A stretch of 64,000 bases of DNA, taken from positions 1-64,000 of the forward strand of contig NZ_NESI01000004.1 in assembly GCF_002778325.1 (NCBI RefSeq). Reading direction: 5' to 3'. This DNA is from Limnohabitans sp. B9-3 (GTDB taxonomy: Bacteria; Pseudomonadota; Gammaproteobacteria; Burkholderiales; Burkholderiaceae_C). Within the stretch, counting starts at the first letter, position 1, and every line of letters starts with the position of its first letter. Made by a program: the position numbers and the translations under genes. This document shows, in pieces, positions 36,724-46,496 of this stretch. The notes under the pieces were generated by a model. That model did not search any database and was not told where the DNA came from. It saw nothing but the letters and a program-made list of their open reading frames with translations.

Positions 36724-37335
36724 TTATCGCTTGGGGGTAGCCACCTTCGATGGCACGTTGGAGATGGGAACGGTTTGGCGTACATCGGCCAACCATGTAT
36801 TCGCCTGCGGCCCACTCCAGTCCACATCCCCCATCACGCGCCAGCGGGCTTGGCCGTTAGGAGCAATGAGGATGGTGGTGGGGTAGACGGCCACGCCCCA
36901 CCGCTTGGCCAACTCGCCTTTGGGGTCTGAAATGACTGGGAACGTCATGCCCGTGCTTTGCATGTATCGGGCTGCGCGTGCAGCAGGTTCTCGCACGTTG
37001 ATGGTGAGCACCACGGTTTGGCTGTCGCTGATGTCATGCAGGGTTTGCAACGTGGGCAATTCGTCTTTACACGGCGCGCACCAAGTGGCCCAAAAATTGA
37101 GAACGACCACTTTGCCTGTTAGCTCAGCTGTGGTCCACGCTTTGCCTTGCAAATCGACGGCTTCGATTTTGGGCGTCGCCGTGTTGGCGGGCCATGCGGT
37201 TTTATCAAACTGCGCCCAAGCATCCGTGGCCATCAAACTTGAAGCCAAGACGGCGAGGCAAACACCAAGAAAAAGGCCCAACACGGGTTGGGCCTTTGTT
37301 TGCATGTCTTGTGAACGTGAGTTCATGCGGATCAC
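36724..37335 (-). CDS. TlpA-family periplasmic thioredoxin
   Basis: The protein of about 203 residues has an N-terminal signal peptide ([24 protein letters not shown]) and a thioredoxin fold with the active site [13 protein letters not shown] (CAPC). TlpA/ResA-type proteins reduce disulfides in the periplasm, commonly for cytochrome c maturation. Its GTG start overlaps the alaS stop by 4 bases; an ATG at 37326 is an alternative. A terminator-like hairpin lies inside its signal-peptide codons (37269–37294), which may limit read-through from alaS. Confidence 0.88.
37269..37294 (-). terminator. Terminator-like hairpin inside the tlpA signal-peptide codons
   Basis: GGCCCAAC (37275–37282) and GTTGGGCC (37287–37294) form an 8-bp perfect stem with a CCGT loop. 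On the minus strand it is followed by TTTTTCTT. This is a good intrinsic terminator, but it lies about 40 bases inside the tlpA coding sequence, just downstream of alaS. It could end alaS transcripts and attenuate tlpA. Confidence 0.6.
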
Positions 37336-39983
37336 AAGCGTTCAGTCACCCAAGCTTGCACACTGGCCAAAGCCTTGGGCAAGGCTGCAGCGTCAGTGCC
37401 ACCCGCCATCGCCATGTCCGGCTTGCCGCCACCTTTGCCGCCGACTTGCTGGGCCACAAAGTTGGCCAACTCGCCCGCCTTGACTTTGCCCACGTTGTCA
37501 GCGGTGACACCTGCAGCGATGTTCACCTTCTCGCCATCAACAGCCGCCAACACGATGACGGCCGACTTCATCTTGTCTTTGAGCTTGTCCATGGTGTCGC
37601 GCAAAGTTTTGGCGTCTGCGCCGTCGAGCTTGGCCACCAAAAGCTTGGTGCCTTTGATGTCCACCGCTTGCGTCAGCAGCTCATCGCTTTGCGCGGAAGC
37701 CACTTTGCCTTTGAGGGCCGACACTTCTTTTTCGAGGGTTTTGATTTGCTCCAACACTTGCGCCAAACGTGCGTTGAGTTCGGTGGGTGGCGCTTTGAGC
37801 GCACCAGCGGCTTGCGCCACAGAGTCTTCAAGGGACTGCAAATAAGCCAGCGCATTGGCGCCTGTGACGGCTTCAATGCGGCGTACACCAGCGGCCACAC
37901 CGCTCTCGCCCACCACTTTGAACAAGCCGATGTCGCCCGTGGCTTTGACGTGTGTGCCACCGCACAGCTCACGGCTAGAACCAATGTCGAGCACGCGCAC
38001 GGTCTCACCGTACTTCTCGCCAAACAACATCATGGCGCCAGTTTTCTGAGCGGACTCGATATCCATCACACGCGCTTGTGCTGCAGCGTTGGCCAAAATT
38101 TCGGCGTTGACCTTGGCTTCAATCTCCCGAATCTGCGCATCGGTGACGGGTGCGTTGTGCGCAAAGTCAAAACGGGTGCGCTCGGCATTCACCAAGCTGC
38201 CTTTTTGTTGCACGTGGTCGCCCAACACTTCACGCAAGGCTTTGTGCATCAAGTGGGTGGCAGAGTGGTTGCGCACGGTAGCTGCGCGCACTTGTGTGTT
38301 GACCTGTGCGTCGACGTGGTCGCCTACGGCCAACGTGCCTTGGGTCAAAGTGCCGTGGTGGCCAAACACATCGGCCTTGATTTTCAAGGTGTCTTCCACC
38401 GCAAAGCTGGCTGAACCACTGACCAACACGCCAGCATCGCCCACTTGGCCGCCGCTCTCGGCGTAGAAGGGGGTCGTGTCCAACACCACCACGCCCGTTT
38501 GGCCGTGCTTGAGTTCGGCCACGGCGTTGCCGTCTAAGTACACAGCCACCACTTTGGACGTGGCTTTGAGGTCGTCATAGCCCACAAACGTGTTGCCAGC
38601 GCCGGTGTAGTCCAAGGCCTTGTCCATTTTGAACTTGCCGGCGGCGCGGGCTTGGGATTTTTGTTTCTCCATCGCGGCGGCAAAGCCTGCTTCATCCACG
38701 CTCAAGCCACGCTCGCGGCACACGTCGGCCGACAAGTCGAGTGGAAAGCCGTAGGTGTCGTGCAGCTTGAAAGCCACATCACCCGGCAATACTTTCACGC
38801 CGCCTTCCAAAGCGGCATCCAAAATTTGCATGCCCACGCCAAGGGTTTCAAAGAAGCGTTCTTCTTCGGCCTTCAACACCGACGCAATGCGCTCGGCTTG
38901 GCTGGCCATATTGGGGTAAGCATCTCCCATGAGCTTGACCAAGTCAGGAACGAGTTTGTGGAAGAACGGTTTTTTCTGACCCAACAAATACCCGTGGCGA
39001 ATGGCGCGGCGGATGATGCGGCGTTGAACATAGCCACGGCCTTCGTTGCTGGGCACCACGCCGTCGCTCACCAAGAACGAGGTGGCCCGGATGTGGTCTG
39101 CAATCACACGCAAGCTCTTATGGCCCAGATCGGTGCAGCCGGTTTCGCGTGACGCGGCTTTGATGAGCGCATCAAAAATGTCGATTTCGTAGTTGCTGTG
39201 CACATGTTGCAAGATAGCCGCCAAGCGCTCGAGGCCCATGCCCGTGTCCACGCAAGGCGCGGGCAGTGGTGTTACGGCGCCTGTATCGTCCATGTTGAAC
39301 TGCATGAACACGTTGTTCCAAATCTCAATAAAGCGGTCACCGTCTTCATCGGGGCTGCCGGGCGGGCCGCCTGGGATGTGGTCGCCGTGGTCGTAGAAGA
39401 TTTCAGAACAAGGACCGCAAGGGCCGGTGTCGGCCATCATCCAAAAGTTATCGCTCTTGTAGCGGCCGCCTTTGTTGTCGCCAATTCGGATGATGCGGGT
39501 TTCTTGCACGATGCGCTCAGGCGTCCAGCCGGCCTTGACAAAAATGCCGTGCCAAATGTCATACGCCTCGTCGTCTTCCATGTACACAGTGGCATAGAGC
39601 TTGTCGGCGGGCAATTTGTAAACCTCGGTCAACAACTCCCAAGCCCACTGCAACGATTCGCGTTTGAAGTAGTCACCAAACGACCAGTTGCCCAGCATTT
39701 CGAAGAAGGTGTGGTGGCGGGCGGTGTAGCCCACGTTTTCTAAGTCGTTGTGTTTGCCGCCGGCGCGCAAGCAGGCTTGGACTGAGGCTGCGCGCACGTA
39801 AGAGCGCTTGTCTTCGCCCAAGAACACGTCTTTGAACTGGACCATGCCCGAGTTGGTGAACATCAAGGTGGGGTCATTGCCCGGCACCAGGGGGCTAGAG
39901 GCCACCACGGTGTGGCCTTTGGACTCGAAGAAGTCCAAGAACGTTTTGCGGATGTCGGCGACGGTGAATTGCGGTTTAGTCAT
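37332..39983 (-). CDS. alaS: Alanyl-tRNA synthetase
   Basis: The 883-residue enzyme is full length. It shows the class II aminoacylation core ([41 protein letters not shown]), the tRNA-recognition helical domain, the editing domain with zinc-type motifs [11 protein letters not shown] and CGGTHV, and a C-terminal C-Ala region ([13 protein letters not shown]). It is translationally coupled to the TlpA gene through a 4-base overlap. A divergent aldehyde dehydrogenase gene begins 88 bp away. Confidence 0.97.
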
Positions 39984-41660: not shown

Positions 41661-42002
41661 ATGAAAACCAAACAAATTTACCTACGTTTTCTCAACCTCA
41701 TCCACGCGTTGGAAGGGGAAGCGCACACGCCTGCCATGGACCTCGATGCCAAGAAATTGCTCGAAATGATTGCAGTGCGTCATGAGCAAGAAAAACCGCT
41801 GACGGTGACAGAAGCCATGGCGCTTGGCACCATTGCGTCCCCTGCCACCATTCACCGCAAACTCGATCAATTGCGCGAACTCGGCATGATTGACACGGTG
41901 TTTGAAGGCAAGAACCGCCGTACCAAATATTTGGTGCCAACCCAAGCATCACACGACTACTTCGAAAGCATCGGCAAGGCCATGCAAGCCGCACTGGCCT
42001 GA
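41661..42002 (+). CDS. Small winged-helix (MarR-like) DNA-binding protein
   Basis: The 113-residue protein resembles MarR-type winged-helix regulators. The recognition region reads LTVTEAMALGTIASPATIHRKLDQLRELGMID, followed by the basic wing TVFEGKNRRTKYLVPTQ. No ligand domain is present. It lies 19 bases upstream of tRNA-Gly on the same strand and downstream of gabD. The regulated gene is unknown. Confidence 0.75.
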   Translation: MKTKQIYLRFLNLIHALEGEAHTPAMDLDAKKLLEMIAVRHEQEKPLTVTEAMALGTIASPATIHRKLDQLRELGMIDTVFEGKNRRTKYLVPTQASHDYFESIGKAMQAALA

Positions 42003-42097: not shown

Positions 42098-42126
42098 AAA
42101 AAAGCCGCTCACTGAGCGGCTTTTTT
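42098..42126. terminator. Bidirectional intrinsic terminator
   Basis: GCCGCTC and GAGCGGC form a 7-bp stem with loop ACT, flanked by six A residues on the left and six T residues on the right. It ends the tRNA-Gly transcript rightward and the scoAB transcript leftward, since scoB stops 18 bases away. Confidence 0.9.
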
Positions 42127-42143: not shown

Positions 42144-42782
42144 TTAAATGAGCGCCACGCCTGTCTTGCTCTGCAAGAACTCACGCGTCACACCGGGTGC
42201 CAACTCAATCACCTTCAGGCCTTCGGGCACCACGTCCATCACGGCCAAGTCCGTGATGATGCGGTCCACCACGCCGACGCCAGTCAAAGGCAAGGTGCAT
42301 TCTTTCAAGATTTTCAAATCTTCGGTACCGTCTTTTTTCTTGGCAACATGCTCCATCAAAATGATCACGCGCTTGACGCCTGCGACCAAGTCCATCGCGC
42401 CGCCCATGCCCTTGACCATCTTGCCGGGGATCATCCAGTTGGCCAGATCGCCCTTTTCGCTCACCTGCATGGCACCCAAAATAGACAGGTTGATCTTGCC
42501 GCCACGGATCATGGCAAACGACTGCTCGCTGCCAAAAATTGACGAGCCTTTGATGGTCGTCACGGTTTGCTTGCCGGCGTTGATCAGGTCGGCATCGACT
42601 TCGTCTTCAACGGGGAAGGGGCCGATGCCCAACATGCCGTTCTCACTTTGCAACCAGACTTCCTTGTCGGCGGGCACGAAGTTGGCCACCAACGTGGGGA
42701 TACCGATGCCCAGGTTCACGTAGAAACCGTCTTCCAGTTCATGGGCCGCACGGGCAGCCATTTGGTCTTGACTCCAGCTCAT
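42144..42782 (-). CDS. scoB: 3-oxoacid CoA-transferase subunit B
   Basis: The second subunit (212 residues from ATG 42782) of a succinyl-CoA:3-ketoacid CoA-transferase. It begins [28 protein letters not shown], and the catalytic Glu lies in [13 protein letters not shown]. It starts one base after the stop of scoA, so the two are coupled. The enzyme activates acetoacetate or 3-oxoadipate with CoA from succinyl-CoA. Confidence 0.92.
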
Positions 42783-42783
42783 A

Positions 42784-43491
42784 TCAAACTCCAGCCTTTT
42801 CAGTGATGGTGCGCTTTTCAATGCGCTTTTCGGGGGACGCATTCAGCACAATGCGGTGCACATAAATGCCGGGCAGATGCACGCTGTCGGGGTGCATGTC
42901 ACCGGTCTCGACGATCTCTTCGACCTCGACCACGCAGATCTTGCCGGCCATCGCCACAGCCGGGTTGAAGTTGCGTGAGGTGTAGCGGAACTGCAGGTTG
43001 CCAGACTTGTCAGCGCGGTGCGCTTTGACAAATGACACATCGGGCACCAAAGAGCGCTCCATCACATACATCTCGCCGTCGAACTCACGCAGCTCTTTGC
43101 CTTCTGCCACCAAAGTGCCCACACCCGTCTTGGTGAAAAAGGCCGGAATGCCTGCACCACCCGCACGCAGCTTCTCGGCCAGCGTACCTTGTGGGGTGAA
43201 CTCCAGCGCCAGCTCGCCCGCCAAGTACTGGCGTTCGAACTCTTTGTTCTCGCCCACGTAAGACGAAATCATCTTCTTGATTTGGCGGGTCTGCAGCAGC
43301 AAACCCAGGCCAAAGTCATCGACGCCCGCATTGTTAGAAATGGCAGTCAGGTTTTGCACACCGCTGTCGCGCAGGGCTGCAATCAAGGCTTCAGGGATGC
43401 CGCACAGGCCAAAACCGCCCACGCCAATGAGTTGCCCGTCAGCCACGATGCCCTTCAAGGCCTCAGCTGCGGATGGATAAATCTTGTTCAC
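42784..43491 (-). CDS. scoA: 3-oxoacid CoA-transferase subunit A
   Basis: The first subunit (235 residues) of a class I CoA-transferase, with the CoA-binding [15 protein letters not shown] segment near residues 23–37. GTG at 43491 is selected since GGAG lies 7 bases upstream and the family usually begins [12 protein letters not shown]. It is divergent from a PAS–LuxR regulator, with a perfect 10-bp inverted repeat in the gap, so ligand-dependent control of scoAB is plausible. Confidence 0.92.
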
Positions 43492-43526
43492 GCCAATCTC
43501 CAAATAGAGGATGAAAACGCCACGAT

Positions 43527-43548
43527 ACTACGTATTCAAATACGTAGT
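43527..43548. promoter_or_regulatory. Perfect 10-bp inverted repeat between scoA and PAS–LuxR gene
   Basis: ACTACGTATT (43527–43536) and AATACGTAGT (43539–43548) are exact inverted repeats with a 2-bp spacer. It lies 36 bases upstream of the scoA start and 56 bases upstream of the regulator start. A dimeric LuxR-type protein would bind such a site, and the neighbouring regulator is the obvious candidate. Confidence 0.7.
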
Positions 43549-43603
43549 TTTTCGTAATGGTCAGTCCGTACACAGACCGGCAGACATTGTCACAGGATTG
43601 CGC

Positions 43604-44170
43604 ATGAGCACAGCCCAGAAAATAGATTACCGCCTCGCCTTTGACTTGGCCCCCATCGGCATGGTCCTCTCAAGCAACCGCACCATGGTCGATTGCAACC
43701 AGCGGGTGTGTGAAATGTTTGGCACATCCCGCGAACAGCTGATCGGCCAGAGCTTTCAGCTGCTCTACCCCAGCGCCGACGAGTACGAGCGCACCGGCCA
43801 ACGCATCACCCCCATCTTGAACACCAAAGGCGTGTACGCCGACGACCGCGTGATGAAACGCGTAGACGGCCGATTCAAGGGCGAAACCTTCTGGTGCCAT
43901 GTGACCGGCCGGGCTCTGAACCGCGATGCCCCGCACGAGGCCGGCATCTGGACCTTTGAAGACCTGTCCGCACGCAAACCCGTCAAGGCCGAACTCACCG
44001 CCCGCGAACGCGAGGTGGCTGCCCACCTGATGGACGGCATGACCAGCAAAGAAATCGGCAAAGCACTGAACATCAGCCACCGCACAGTAGAAATCTACCG
44101 CGTCAAGCTCATGCGCAAATACCAGGCTTCAGGGGCTGCAGACTTGATTCAGAAGTTGATGCGGGGTTAA
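43604..44170 (+). CDS. PAS-domain LuxR-type transcriptional regulator
   Basis: The protein of 188 residues (ATG 43604) has an N-terminal PAS domain (about 10–120; FDLAPIGMVLSSNRTMVDCNQRVCEMFG through WTFEDLSARK) and a C-terminal LuxR/FixJ helix-turn-helix (LTAREREVAAHLMDGMTSKEIGKALNISHRTVEIYRVKLMRKY). There is no phosphoacceptor domain, so it senses through PAS, possibly a small ligand or redox state. It faces scoAB and converges with the acyl-CoA dehydrogenase gene, whose stop is 4 bases away. Confidence 0.88.
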   Translation: MSTAQKIDYRLAFDLAPIGMVLSSNRTMVDCNQRVCEMFGTSREQLIGQSFQLLYPSADEYERTGQRITPILNTKGVYADDRVMKRVDGRFKGETFWCHVTGRALNRDAPHEAGIWTFEDLSARKPVKAELTAREREVAAHLMDGMTSKEIGKALNISHRTVEIYRVKLMRKYQASGAADLIQKLMRG

Positions 44171-44174
44171 CAGG

Positions 44175-46496
44175 TCAAACTGCGCCGACCAACCCAGCCA
44201 AGCGGCGCAAATGCTGCGTGACCCCGCCAAACTGTTGCTCGATCACCGTCAGTCGCTTGAAAGCATGTCCCACGGCCAGCTCGTTGGTCATGCCCATGCC
44301 ACCGTGCAACTGCACCGCGCCCTGCCCCACCAAACGGGCGGCACGCAGCACCGTCACATGGGCAGATGACACGCGCTGCGCGCGGCGCGCCGCACTGTCG
44401 CCACACACATCGGCACAAGCACCGACCGCAGCCGCGGCTTGCACCAGCGCTAGGTACATATCTGCCATGCGGTGTTGCAGCGCTTGAAAGGTCGCCAAAG
44501 GCTGGCCGAACTGTTTACGCTGGCTGGTGTAGCTGAGCGTGTCGCGCATCAGCGCCTGCATCACGCCCACGGCTTCGGCACCAGCAACCAAGGTTGCCGT
44601 GTCCCACGCTTGCGAGAGTGCGGCCAATGCGTCGCCCTGCCCCAAGACAGCCTGAACAGGCACTTGGTCAAACGCCAACTCTGCGGCCCAGGCCCCGTCG
44701 ATCAATTGAACATCGCGCCGCTGCACGCCGCTGGCCGCCCGTTCAATCACGCAGATGCACAGTTGCCCCGCCTCATCTCGCGCACTGACCAGCCAGTGTG
44801 TGGCCCAAGGTGCACTGCGCACGAGGGTTTTGCGCCCACTGACGCAGCGCTGGCCACCTTTGGTGTGCAAGTGGGTCGACACCCGACTCAAGTCGGTGCG
44901 CCCCTCAGGCTCAAAGGCTGCCACAGCCAGACGGACTTGGCCGTTGGCTAAGCCCTGCAACAAAGCCTCGGCCGCCGGATCGTCCAGCGCCTGCAGCAAG
45001 TTCGCGCCCAGAACGGCGGAACTGCTGTAAGGCTCAGGCACCAAGGCAGCGCCCAAAGCTTGGCAGATCAGCATCTGCTCAGGTAATCCACCCCCCATGC
45101 CCCCTAGGTTTTCAGGCAATGCTGCGCCCAAAAGACCCAGCTCGTGAGCCAAGCCTCGCCAAAGCGGCGCGATCGCTTCAGGCGTGGCGATCATCTGGGC
45201 CCGTTGGTCGACAGACAAGGTGTTCTGCAGCCAGGCTCGCAAACTGTCCAACAGCATGGTCTGCGTTTCGTCGGTAGGCAACACGGGCTCCACCACCTCG
45301 GCACTCAAAATATGGCGGGCAATCAGATTGCGCTGCACCTCGTTGGTGCCGCCATAAATCGATGCGGCACGGTCGTTCAAATACGCCCTTGTCGCAAATA
45401 CCGACGCCTCGGGAACGGACAGCACATGATCGCTGGCCTCTTCCACAGTCAGGCTGGTGGCTCCATAGGGGCCTGCAATGCTCAGACCTAACTCGGTCAA
45501 GTGCTGTTTGAGTTCAGTCGCCAGCACCTTGCCCATCGATGGGGCCGCGGGCATACAGCAAGGCTGAGGACCGCCGCTGATGCGCGCAGTCAGCACCTGC
45601 TGCTCCCAAGCGTGCAAGGCGTCGATACGGCATTGCGCGTTGGCCAAGGTCAAGGCGATGTCGTCGTGCTCGGAATCAGCCGCTCCCTGTGCAAAGGACT
45701 CGCGCAATGAGGCGTACAGGCGAGCCAATCGGCCCCGCAAAAACGGCGCAGAGGAGCCGCCCCGTTCGTGTTCCAGCAAGAATTTGGCAATGGTCCAGCC
45801 CTGGTTTTCTTGACCGATCAGCGCGTCTGCAGGCACACGGGCGTCATCAAAGAAAACTTGGTTGAATTCATGATCGCCCGAGATGCTGACGATCGGGCGA
45901 ATCTGAATGCCCGGGTTGTTCAGCTCGAACATCAAAAAGCTGATACCTTGCTGCGGCTTGCCGCTGCTGTCGGTGCGCACCAGGCAAAACATGTGCGTGG
46001 CGCGGTGGGCGTGGGTTGTCCAGATTTTGGAGCCGTTGATCACCCATTCGTTGCCCTCACGACGGGCGCGGCATTGCAGCGATGCCAAGTCGGACCCGGA
46101 TCCAGGCTCGCTGTAGCCCTGGCACCAGTAACTCACGCCGTTGCGAATGTCGGGGAGCCAACGTTCTTTTTGGGCCTGCGTGCCAAACGCCACCAGCACA
46201 GGTGCCGCCATGACCAACCCCAAGGGCGAGACTTTGGGAGCGTCGGCCGCCGCCATCTCGCTGGCAAAAATGTCGTGCTGCTTGGGCGTCCAACCGCAAC
46301 CACCCCACTCAACCGGCCAGTGTGGCGCCGCCCAGCCACGCTTGGCCAGAACCCGCTGCCAAGGAATACCCACTTCGTAATCCGAAAAAATGCCCGAGGT
46401 GCGGTGACCGCCAAGACGGATCTCCTCCGTCAGCTCGGTCGCCAAAAAGGCGCGCACTTCGTCGCGGAAAGCCAGTTCGTCTTTGCTCAAATTCAT
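44175..46496 (-). CDS. Fused double-domain acyl-CoA dehydrogenase
   Basis: The 773-residue protein consists of two acyl-CoA dehydrogenase units, roughly 1–395 and 410–773. The first has QGYSEPGSGSDLASLQCRA and ends with ASIYGGTNEVQRNLIARHIL, the FAD/dimer segments of the family. The second is more divergent, with QRKQFGQPLATFQALQHRMADMYLALVQ and VQLHGGMGMTNELAVGHAFKRL. Tandem or paired acyl-CoA dehydrogenases act on sterol and other bulky acyl-CoAs in some bacteria, and a fused form suggests an internal heterodimer. It is the last gene of a leftward run with the nitroreductase and the carboxymuconolactone-decarboxylase-like gene. GGAG lies 8 bases before the ATG. Confidence 0.85.
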   Translation of the reverse strand: MNLSKDELAFRDEVRAFLATELTEEIRLGGHRTSGIFSDYEVGIPWQRVLAKRGWAAPHWPVEWGGCGWTPKQHDIFASEMAAADAPKVSPLGLVMAAPVLVAFGTQAQKERWLPDIRNGVSYWCQGYSEPGSGSDLASLQCRARREGNEWVINGSKIWTTHAHRATHMFCLVRTDSSGKPQQGISFLMFELNNPGIQIRPIVSISGDHEFNQVFFDDARVPADALIGQENQGWTIAKFLLEHERGGSSAPFLRGRLARLYASLRESFAQGAADSEHDDIALTLANAQCRIDALHAWEQQVLTARISGGPQPCCMPAAPSMGKVLATELKQHLTELGLSIAGPYGATSLTVEEASDHVLSVPEASVFATRAYLNDRAASIYGGTNEVQRNLIARHILSAEVVEPVLPTDETQTMLLDSLRAWLQNTLSVDQRAQMIATPEAIAPLWRGLAHELGLLGAALPENLGGMGGGLPEQMLICQALGAALVPEPYSSSAVLGANLLQALDDPAAEALLQGLANGQVRLAVAAFEPEGRTDLSRVSTHLHTKGGQRCVSGRKTLVRSAPWATHWLVSARDEAGQLCICVIERAASGVQRRDVQLIDGAWAAELAFDQVPVQAVLGQGDALAALSQAWDTATLVAGAEAVGVMQALMRDTLSYTSQRKQFGQPLATFQALQHRMADMYLALVQAAAAVGACADVCGDSAARRAQRVSSAHVTVLRAARLVGQGAVQLHGGMGMTNELAVGHAFKRLTVIEQQFGGVTQHLRRLAGLVGAV

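Follow-up and report, generated by a model that had tools for sequence, protein, structure and literature searches.

VqmA of Vibrio cholerae and phage VP882 is a PAS–LuxR one-component receptor for DPO, and the phage protein acts at a divergent promoter where it activates both genes [PMC8284805, available part of the article]. A sequence-only reading of the DNA considered here had called receiver-less PAS–LuxR proteins poorly characterised as ligand sensors, which is too strong given that VqmA is well studied [PMC8284805, same part]. The PimM-type PAS–LuxR proteins of Streptomyces have the same architecture and are pathway-specific activators, but of actinobacterial secondary metabolism, and are likened here from partial descriptions only. 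Proteins of the EL222 type, recovered by both Foldseek and phmmer, likewise join a PAS-fold (LOV) domain to a LuxR helix-turn-helix (HTH). Finally, the PAS domain of a LuxR-family regulator from Burkholderia has been solved by structural genomics (pdb:3mqo and 3mqq). This is an isolated domain for which the records examined give neither function nor operator, and the four papers found to name it deal with fold prediction, to judge by titles; the isopropanol in the title of 3mqo probably comes from crystallisation. Searches of the open-access literature in PubMed Central turned up no paper on the regulator or motif described below at scoAB, and PMC6449761 mentions neither LuxR nor TACGTA.

The regulator examined here is encoded on the forward strand at 43604–44170 of a 64,000-nucleotide stretch of Limnohabitans sp. 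B9-3 (contig NZ_NESI01000004.1), the whole of which we call the window. It is a protein of 188 aa with a PAS domain at about residues 8–125 and a GerE-type HTH at 130–183. Pfam places PF13426/PF00989 (PAS) and PF00196 (GerE/LuxR HTH) above cut-off in one chain and has no receiver domain among its matches; NCBIfam response-regulator matches cover only the C-terminal HTH and fall below cut-off. The AlphaFold2 model (mean pLDDT 88.6) shows PAS and HTH folds. As the phosphoacceptor receiver is absent from Pfam, NCBIfam and the model alike, the protein is not a response regulator of the NarL/FixJ class. Three features of a PAS–LuxR one-component regulator are present, namely PAS and HTH in one chain, no receiver, and a conserved, putative palindromic operator at the target promoter.

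Its PAS domain belongs to the same subfamily as 3mqo (E 8e-44), with which the model superposes at Z 20.6 and an rmsd of 1.0 Å over 113 residues with 62% identity. After 3mqo, the full-length chains that Foldseek ranks highest are those of VqmA bound to ligand or DNA, but at only 19–26% identity (22–26% for the V. cholerae chains), and phmmer against 6ugl, 6kju and 6ide aligns just the C-terminal part at E ~7e-4, which falls short of a close relation to VqmA. VqmA is similar in combining a receiver-less PAS with a LuxR-type HTH and a palindromic operator (here putative), but its operator is GG-N6-CC [PMC8284805, available part] rather than ACTACGTA-N6-TACGTAGT, and it targets a quorum-sensing RNA rather than a metabolic operon. 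By sequence and by operator, the regulator is not a VqmA. As a working analogy it may nevertheless operate like one, as a cytoplasmic PAS–LuxR dimer that sits on a palindrome and responds to an activating small molecule. The regulator is also unlike EL222 in lacking the LOV cysteine motif, and is not a light sensor by sequence. The photoactive cysteine of LOV domains lies in GXNCRFLQ; the equivalent stretch here is GQSFQLLYP, and no invariant cysteine occurs there in 67 aligned sequences. Among 67 aligned orthologues, the charged or aromatic PAS residues D80, R82, R86, W97, C98 and W116 are invariant, a set compatible with a polar pocket.

Divergent from the regulator, on the reverse strand, are scoA (42784–43491; NCBIfam TIGR02429; GTG start at 43491, or alternatively TTG at 43503) and scoB (42144–42842; TIGR02428), encoding subunits A and B of a 3-oxoacid CoA-transferase. 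A Shine–Dalgarno-like GGAGA at 43497–43501, retained in the relatives listed, precedes scoA. Just past scoB, a perfect inverted repeat (14 bp; 42098–42126), accompanied by runs of A and T, is the likely scoAB terminator. Two neighbours deserve mention in passing. A 113-aa open reading frame at 41661–42002, between an aldehyde dehydrogenase gene and scoB, matches nothing in Pfam or NCBIfam at 0.001. The gene at 44175–46496 encodes a single chain of 773 aa with two acyl-CoA dehydrogenase units, which resemble, both below cut-off, the large and small subunits of pimeloyl-CoA dehydrogenase.

The gap between scoA and the regulator is 112 nt, and within it lies the dyad ACTACGTATT-CA-AATACGTAGT (43527–43548). 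The sequence-only reading had described a perfect 10-bp inverted repeat with a 2-bp spacer between scoAB and a receiver-less PAS–LuxR gene; the repeat is exact, and domain and family searches bear out both neighbours. The dyad occurs once in the window with up to three mismatches allowed, and in none of 100 shuffles. Perfect inverted repeats with arms of at least 10 and gaps of at most 10 are found at seven distinct places in the window (13 listing rows), several of them terminator-like, against 0–2 rows in each of 12 dinucleotide shuffles. The dyad is thus above chance, yet palindromes are not unique to it in the window, so palindromicity by itself does not prove an operator and the proof has to come from comparative data.

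Named genomes possessing the regulator provided 80 loci, mostly from Limnohabitans, Polaromonas, Curvibacter and their relatives and 78–96% identical; 16 loci that failed the start-codon rule first applied were located by tblastn. In all 78 loci with a readable scoA upstream region the site matches in at least 13 of the 16 arm positions, and in 57 of the 78 it matches in all 16, so that the dyad is kept at the same divergent locus in relatives, where its absence was to have counted against the sequence-only reading. The invariant unit is ACTACGTA-N6-TACGTAGT, with the six inner bases free to vary; both inner pairs are complementary in just 14 of the 76 relatives' sites that score 15–16 of 16. 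The full 10-bp arms are therefore ruled out as the recognised unit; in each arm conservation is confined to the outer 8 bp. In the scoA orientation a longer element can be read, TTACGAAAA-ACTACGTA-N6-TACGTAGT-ATCGTA. Its centre is 43–60 nt from the scoA start (median 46; 78 loci), but the distance to the start of the regulator match varies between 34 and 318 nt among the loci measured. This anchoring tally leaves out L045 and L067 (contig ends), L103, and L146, L148, L207 and L216 (stretch without scoA). As the distance to scoA is fixed and that to the regulator variable, the site belongs to the scoA promoter, and the earlier suggestion that it serves both divergent genes is unsupported as it was put. 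The comparison thus establishes both the site and its anchoring to scoA. At locus L024 the site stays with scoA although a transposase-like gene (L024:1741–2841, named by eye) separates scoA from the regulator. In another family of the order, a regulator 52% identical lies beside scoAB (L258:4424–6501) with a gap devoid of the TACGTA dyad. One record titled as an Akkermansia muciniphila MAG (L059) bears this Burkholderiales locus at 88% identity; probably the contig, or the name it carries, was assigned in error.

Our preferred reading, to which we give a probability of about 0.6, is that the neighbouring PAS–LuxR one-component regulator recognises an operator array in which the dyad is the strongest element, and would control scoAB (succinyl-CoA:3-oxoacid CoA-transferase), most likely as an activator. 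The conserved core of the dyad consists of two TACGTA half-sites on the reverse strand, B (43541–43546; columns −12 to −7 of the conservation profile) and C (43529–43534; columns 0 to 5), the latter beside the putative scoA −10, TATCGT (43522–43527). A half-site-like TACGAA in the scoA orientation, A' (43551–43556; columns −22 to −17), is co-conserved with the dyad 10 bp upstream of B. Counted from half-site C, the lineage nearest the window has half-sites at −22 (TACGAA), −12 and 0, and another lineage at about −33, −23, −12 and 0. As the steps are of 10–12 bp, every half-site faces the same side of the DNA. Dimers of the regulator would bind these TACGTA-type half-sites about one helical turn apart, in an array ending directly at the scoA −10.

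TANNNT immediately downstream of the site is present in all 127 aligned promoters (TATCGT in 100, TACGCT in 20), but 16–18 bp further up the −35 hexamer (TTGACA-like) is absent, with a mean of 2.1 of 6 matches against 2.4 for random sequence; sequence reading finds no TG-extended −10. A scan with the sigma-70 consensus called no promoter at the dyad locus, so the −10 is drawn from conservation alone, and the start site we infer from it. With TANNNT taken as the −10, the centre of the dyad would fall near −22 and the upstream part of the element near −34 to −45. A promoter with a −10 but no −35 would most likely be activated by the regulator, which speaks for activation. The position of the dyad fits repression at least equally well, and a dimer of the same regulator on the same site, blocking RNA polymerase between −35 and −10 until released by ligand, is the most serious alternative, possible though doubtful. 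It would suit a dyad apparently situated between −35 and −10 with its right arm abutting the −10, and a dedicated local regulator with one target. It sits poorly with the lack of both a −35 and a TG-extended −10, which leaves little basal promoter to repress, with upstream half-sites that reach about −52 in some lineages and outlive the dyad there, and with a thiolase site, discussed later in the text, 80–103 nt upstream of an ATG. Nor do scoA genes of regulator-less genomes have a sharper sigma-70 promoter (mean best score 7.23 of 12, n = 57) than those with the regulator (7.21, n = 125); the scores being equal, this comparison lends activation no support. Overall we rank activation ahead of repression by roughly two to one.

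That the regulator next door is the protein concerned was examined in 299 genomes of the family, in which it is present in 226, belonging to 108 of the 135 genera sampled. Near-exact matches to the site (14 positions, at most one mismatch) occur in 184 genomes; 182 have both, two the site only, 44 the regulator only and 71 neither. As a reversed control pattern likewise matches 0–3 times in many genomes, presence counts alone are weak and the argument rests on position. For the 44 regulator-only genomes, 39 scoA upstream regions were examined: 20 have the site at 2–3 mismatches (13–14 of 16), and the other 19 retain TTAGGCGATTCTACGTA just upstream at 12–17 of 17 positions (at least 14 in 14 of these 19). 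Regulator-less genomes number 73, of which 60 have a scoA match; 57 upstream regions were examined after setting aside G078 (partial), G290 and G355 (58–60% identical), second copies in G246 and G148 being excluded and a G212 match at 44% identity not counted as an orthologue. The site is missing from all of these 57, the best score being 12 of 16, and none has TTAGGCGATTCTACGTA at 14 or more of 17. Species with and without the regulator are mixed in 16 genera, 14 of which include species with both regulator and site; in those 14 the site is absent from all 15 regulator-less species, although 12 of them (in 11 genera) retain scoA.

Dependence of the site on the regulator is thus evident from comparison: the dyad accompanies the regulator and vanishes without it, and is very probably the control site on which this PAS–LuxR protein docks, although direct binding is something we infer. 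As regulator and site are adjacent, their joint loss could in part be a single deletion, a worry that the thiolase copies answer for one genus only. That some other protein binds the site and the PAS–LuxR gene is a bystander is accordingly quite improbable. In its favour is that the right half of the site plus TATCGT survives in some regulator-less promoters (e.g. L153, L173 and L205), which fits decay of an operator around a core promoter that was kept; a bystander would hardly be possessed by 182 of the 184 genomes with a match, nor be missing together with the full site so repeatedly within 14 genera. Were the dyad to act at the RNA level, as a forward-strand hairpin or intrinsic terminator, this would account for a stem followed by a T run (retained in the lineage nearest the window) that was called terminator-like. 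This reading was rejected as hardly credible because the genes diverge, so that no transcript would obviously terminate between them, the inner stem pairs vary, the T run is absent from a second lineage and the position relative to scoA is fixed.

The sequence-only reading had proposed that further copies of the dyad would define a regulon. The genome to which the window belongs has a single copy in 3.4 Mb, the only other place at three mismatches being C17:140409 (L265), and a lone site makes this a local regulator of scoAB rather than a global one. A second target is found in one genus (g42), where all four species sampled (G077, G201, G281 and G347) have an extra site unlinked to scoA, 80–103 nt upstream of the ATG of one orthologous gene, a beta-ketothiolase. 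The G281 copy is an NCBIfam BktB equivalog (765 bits; cut-off 725). ScoAB yields acetoacetyl-CoA, which thiolases of the BktB type then cleave as the next step in acetoacetate use. Sequence downstream of the thiolase sites has diverged between these species and the site itself is kept; TANNNT does not adjoin it in the thiolase promoters. The thiolase as second target in this genus emerges from the comparison, and supports a tie between the regulator and the use of acetoacetate or other 3-oxoacids. Further matches to the site occur in G088, G294, G235 (L103), G116, G224 and G251; L103 has neither scoA nor regulator.

The regulator, as we prefer to see it, would be triggered perhaps by binding of a small 3-oxoacid metabolite such as acetoacetate to its PAS domain, the ligand being a guess. 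A bolder version, which we regard as speculative and rather unlikely in full, would make the family-wide regulator a dedicated acetoacetate or 3-oxoacid sensor, with the PAS domain binding the ketone-body metabolite directly and up to four phased half-sites reaching the −10 letting the protein replace the missing −35, so that it activates from inside the promoter and not from the usual position at about −42.

The window's regulator is 94–95% identical to copies in another genus (g109) and its ScoA matches named Limnohabitans records at 95–97%, whereas compared with other members of their own genus the two reach just 77–88% identity. The alanyl-tRNA synthetase of the window (AlaRS; 37332–39983), in contrast, is 95–96% identical to that of three genomes of its own genus and 83–89% to g109. 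From this difference the scoA–regulator block (42784–44170) looks horizontally exchanged. Palindromes resembling the PhaR consensus (as given in the available part of PMC12849132; at most one mismatch) are present in five of the 57 regulator-less scoA upstream regions (L174, L182, L195, L199 and L203) and in one of 146 with the regulator, shuffles giving ~0 for both sets. In certain lineages, this suggests, scoA is instead wired to the PHB regulator. Paralogous PAS–LuxR genes, about 46–47% identical, are found elsewhere. One is divergent from a thiolase-domain gene (L253:4422–6226) with GGTAGTTCTACGTC in the gap, and another (L252:4293–4871) lies beside genes resembling an ABC transporter and an acyl-CoA dehydrogenase (named by eye). 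These may belong to a wider family controlling acyl-CoA operons.

The locus thus supplies a putative operator and target for a PAS–LuxR subfamily whose PAS fold has been solved (3mqo) but to which the records examined assign no role. Metabolic wiring at scoA seems to have been gained or lost repeatedly, with PhaR-like sites in some of the lineages that lack the regulator. The arrangement would amount to a small, local switch of one regulator and one operator for acetoacetate use, perhaps usable as a biosensor.
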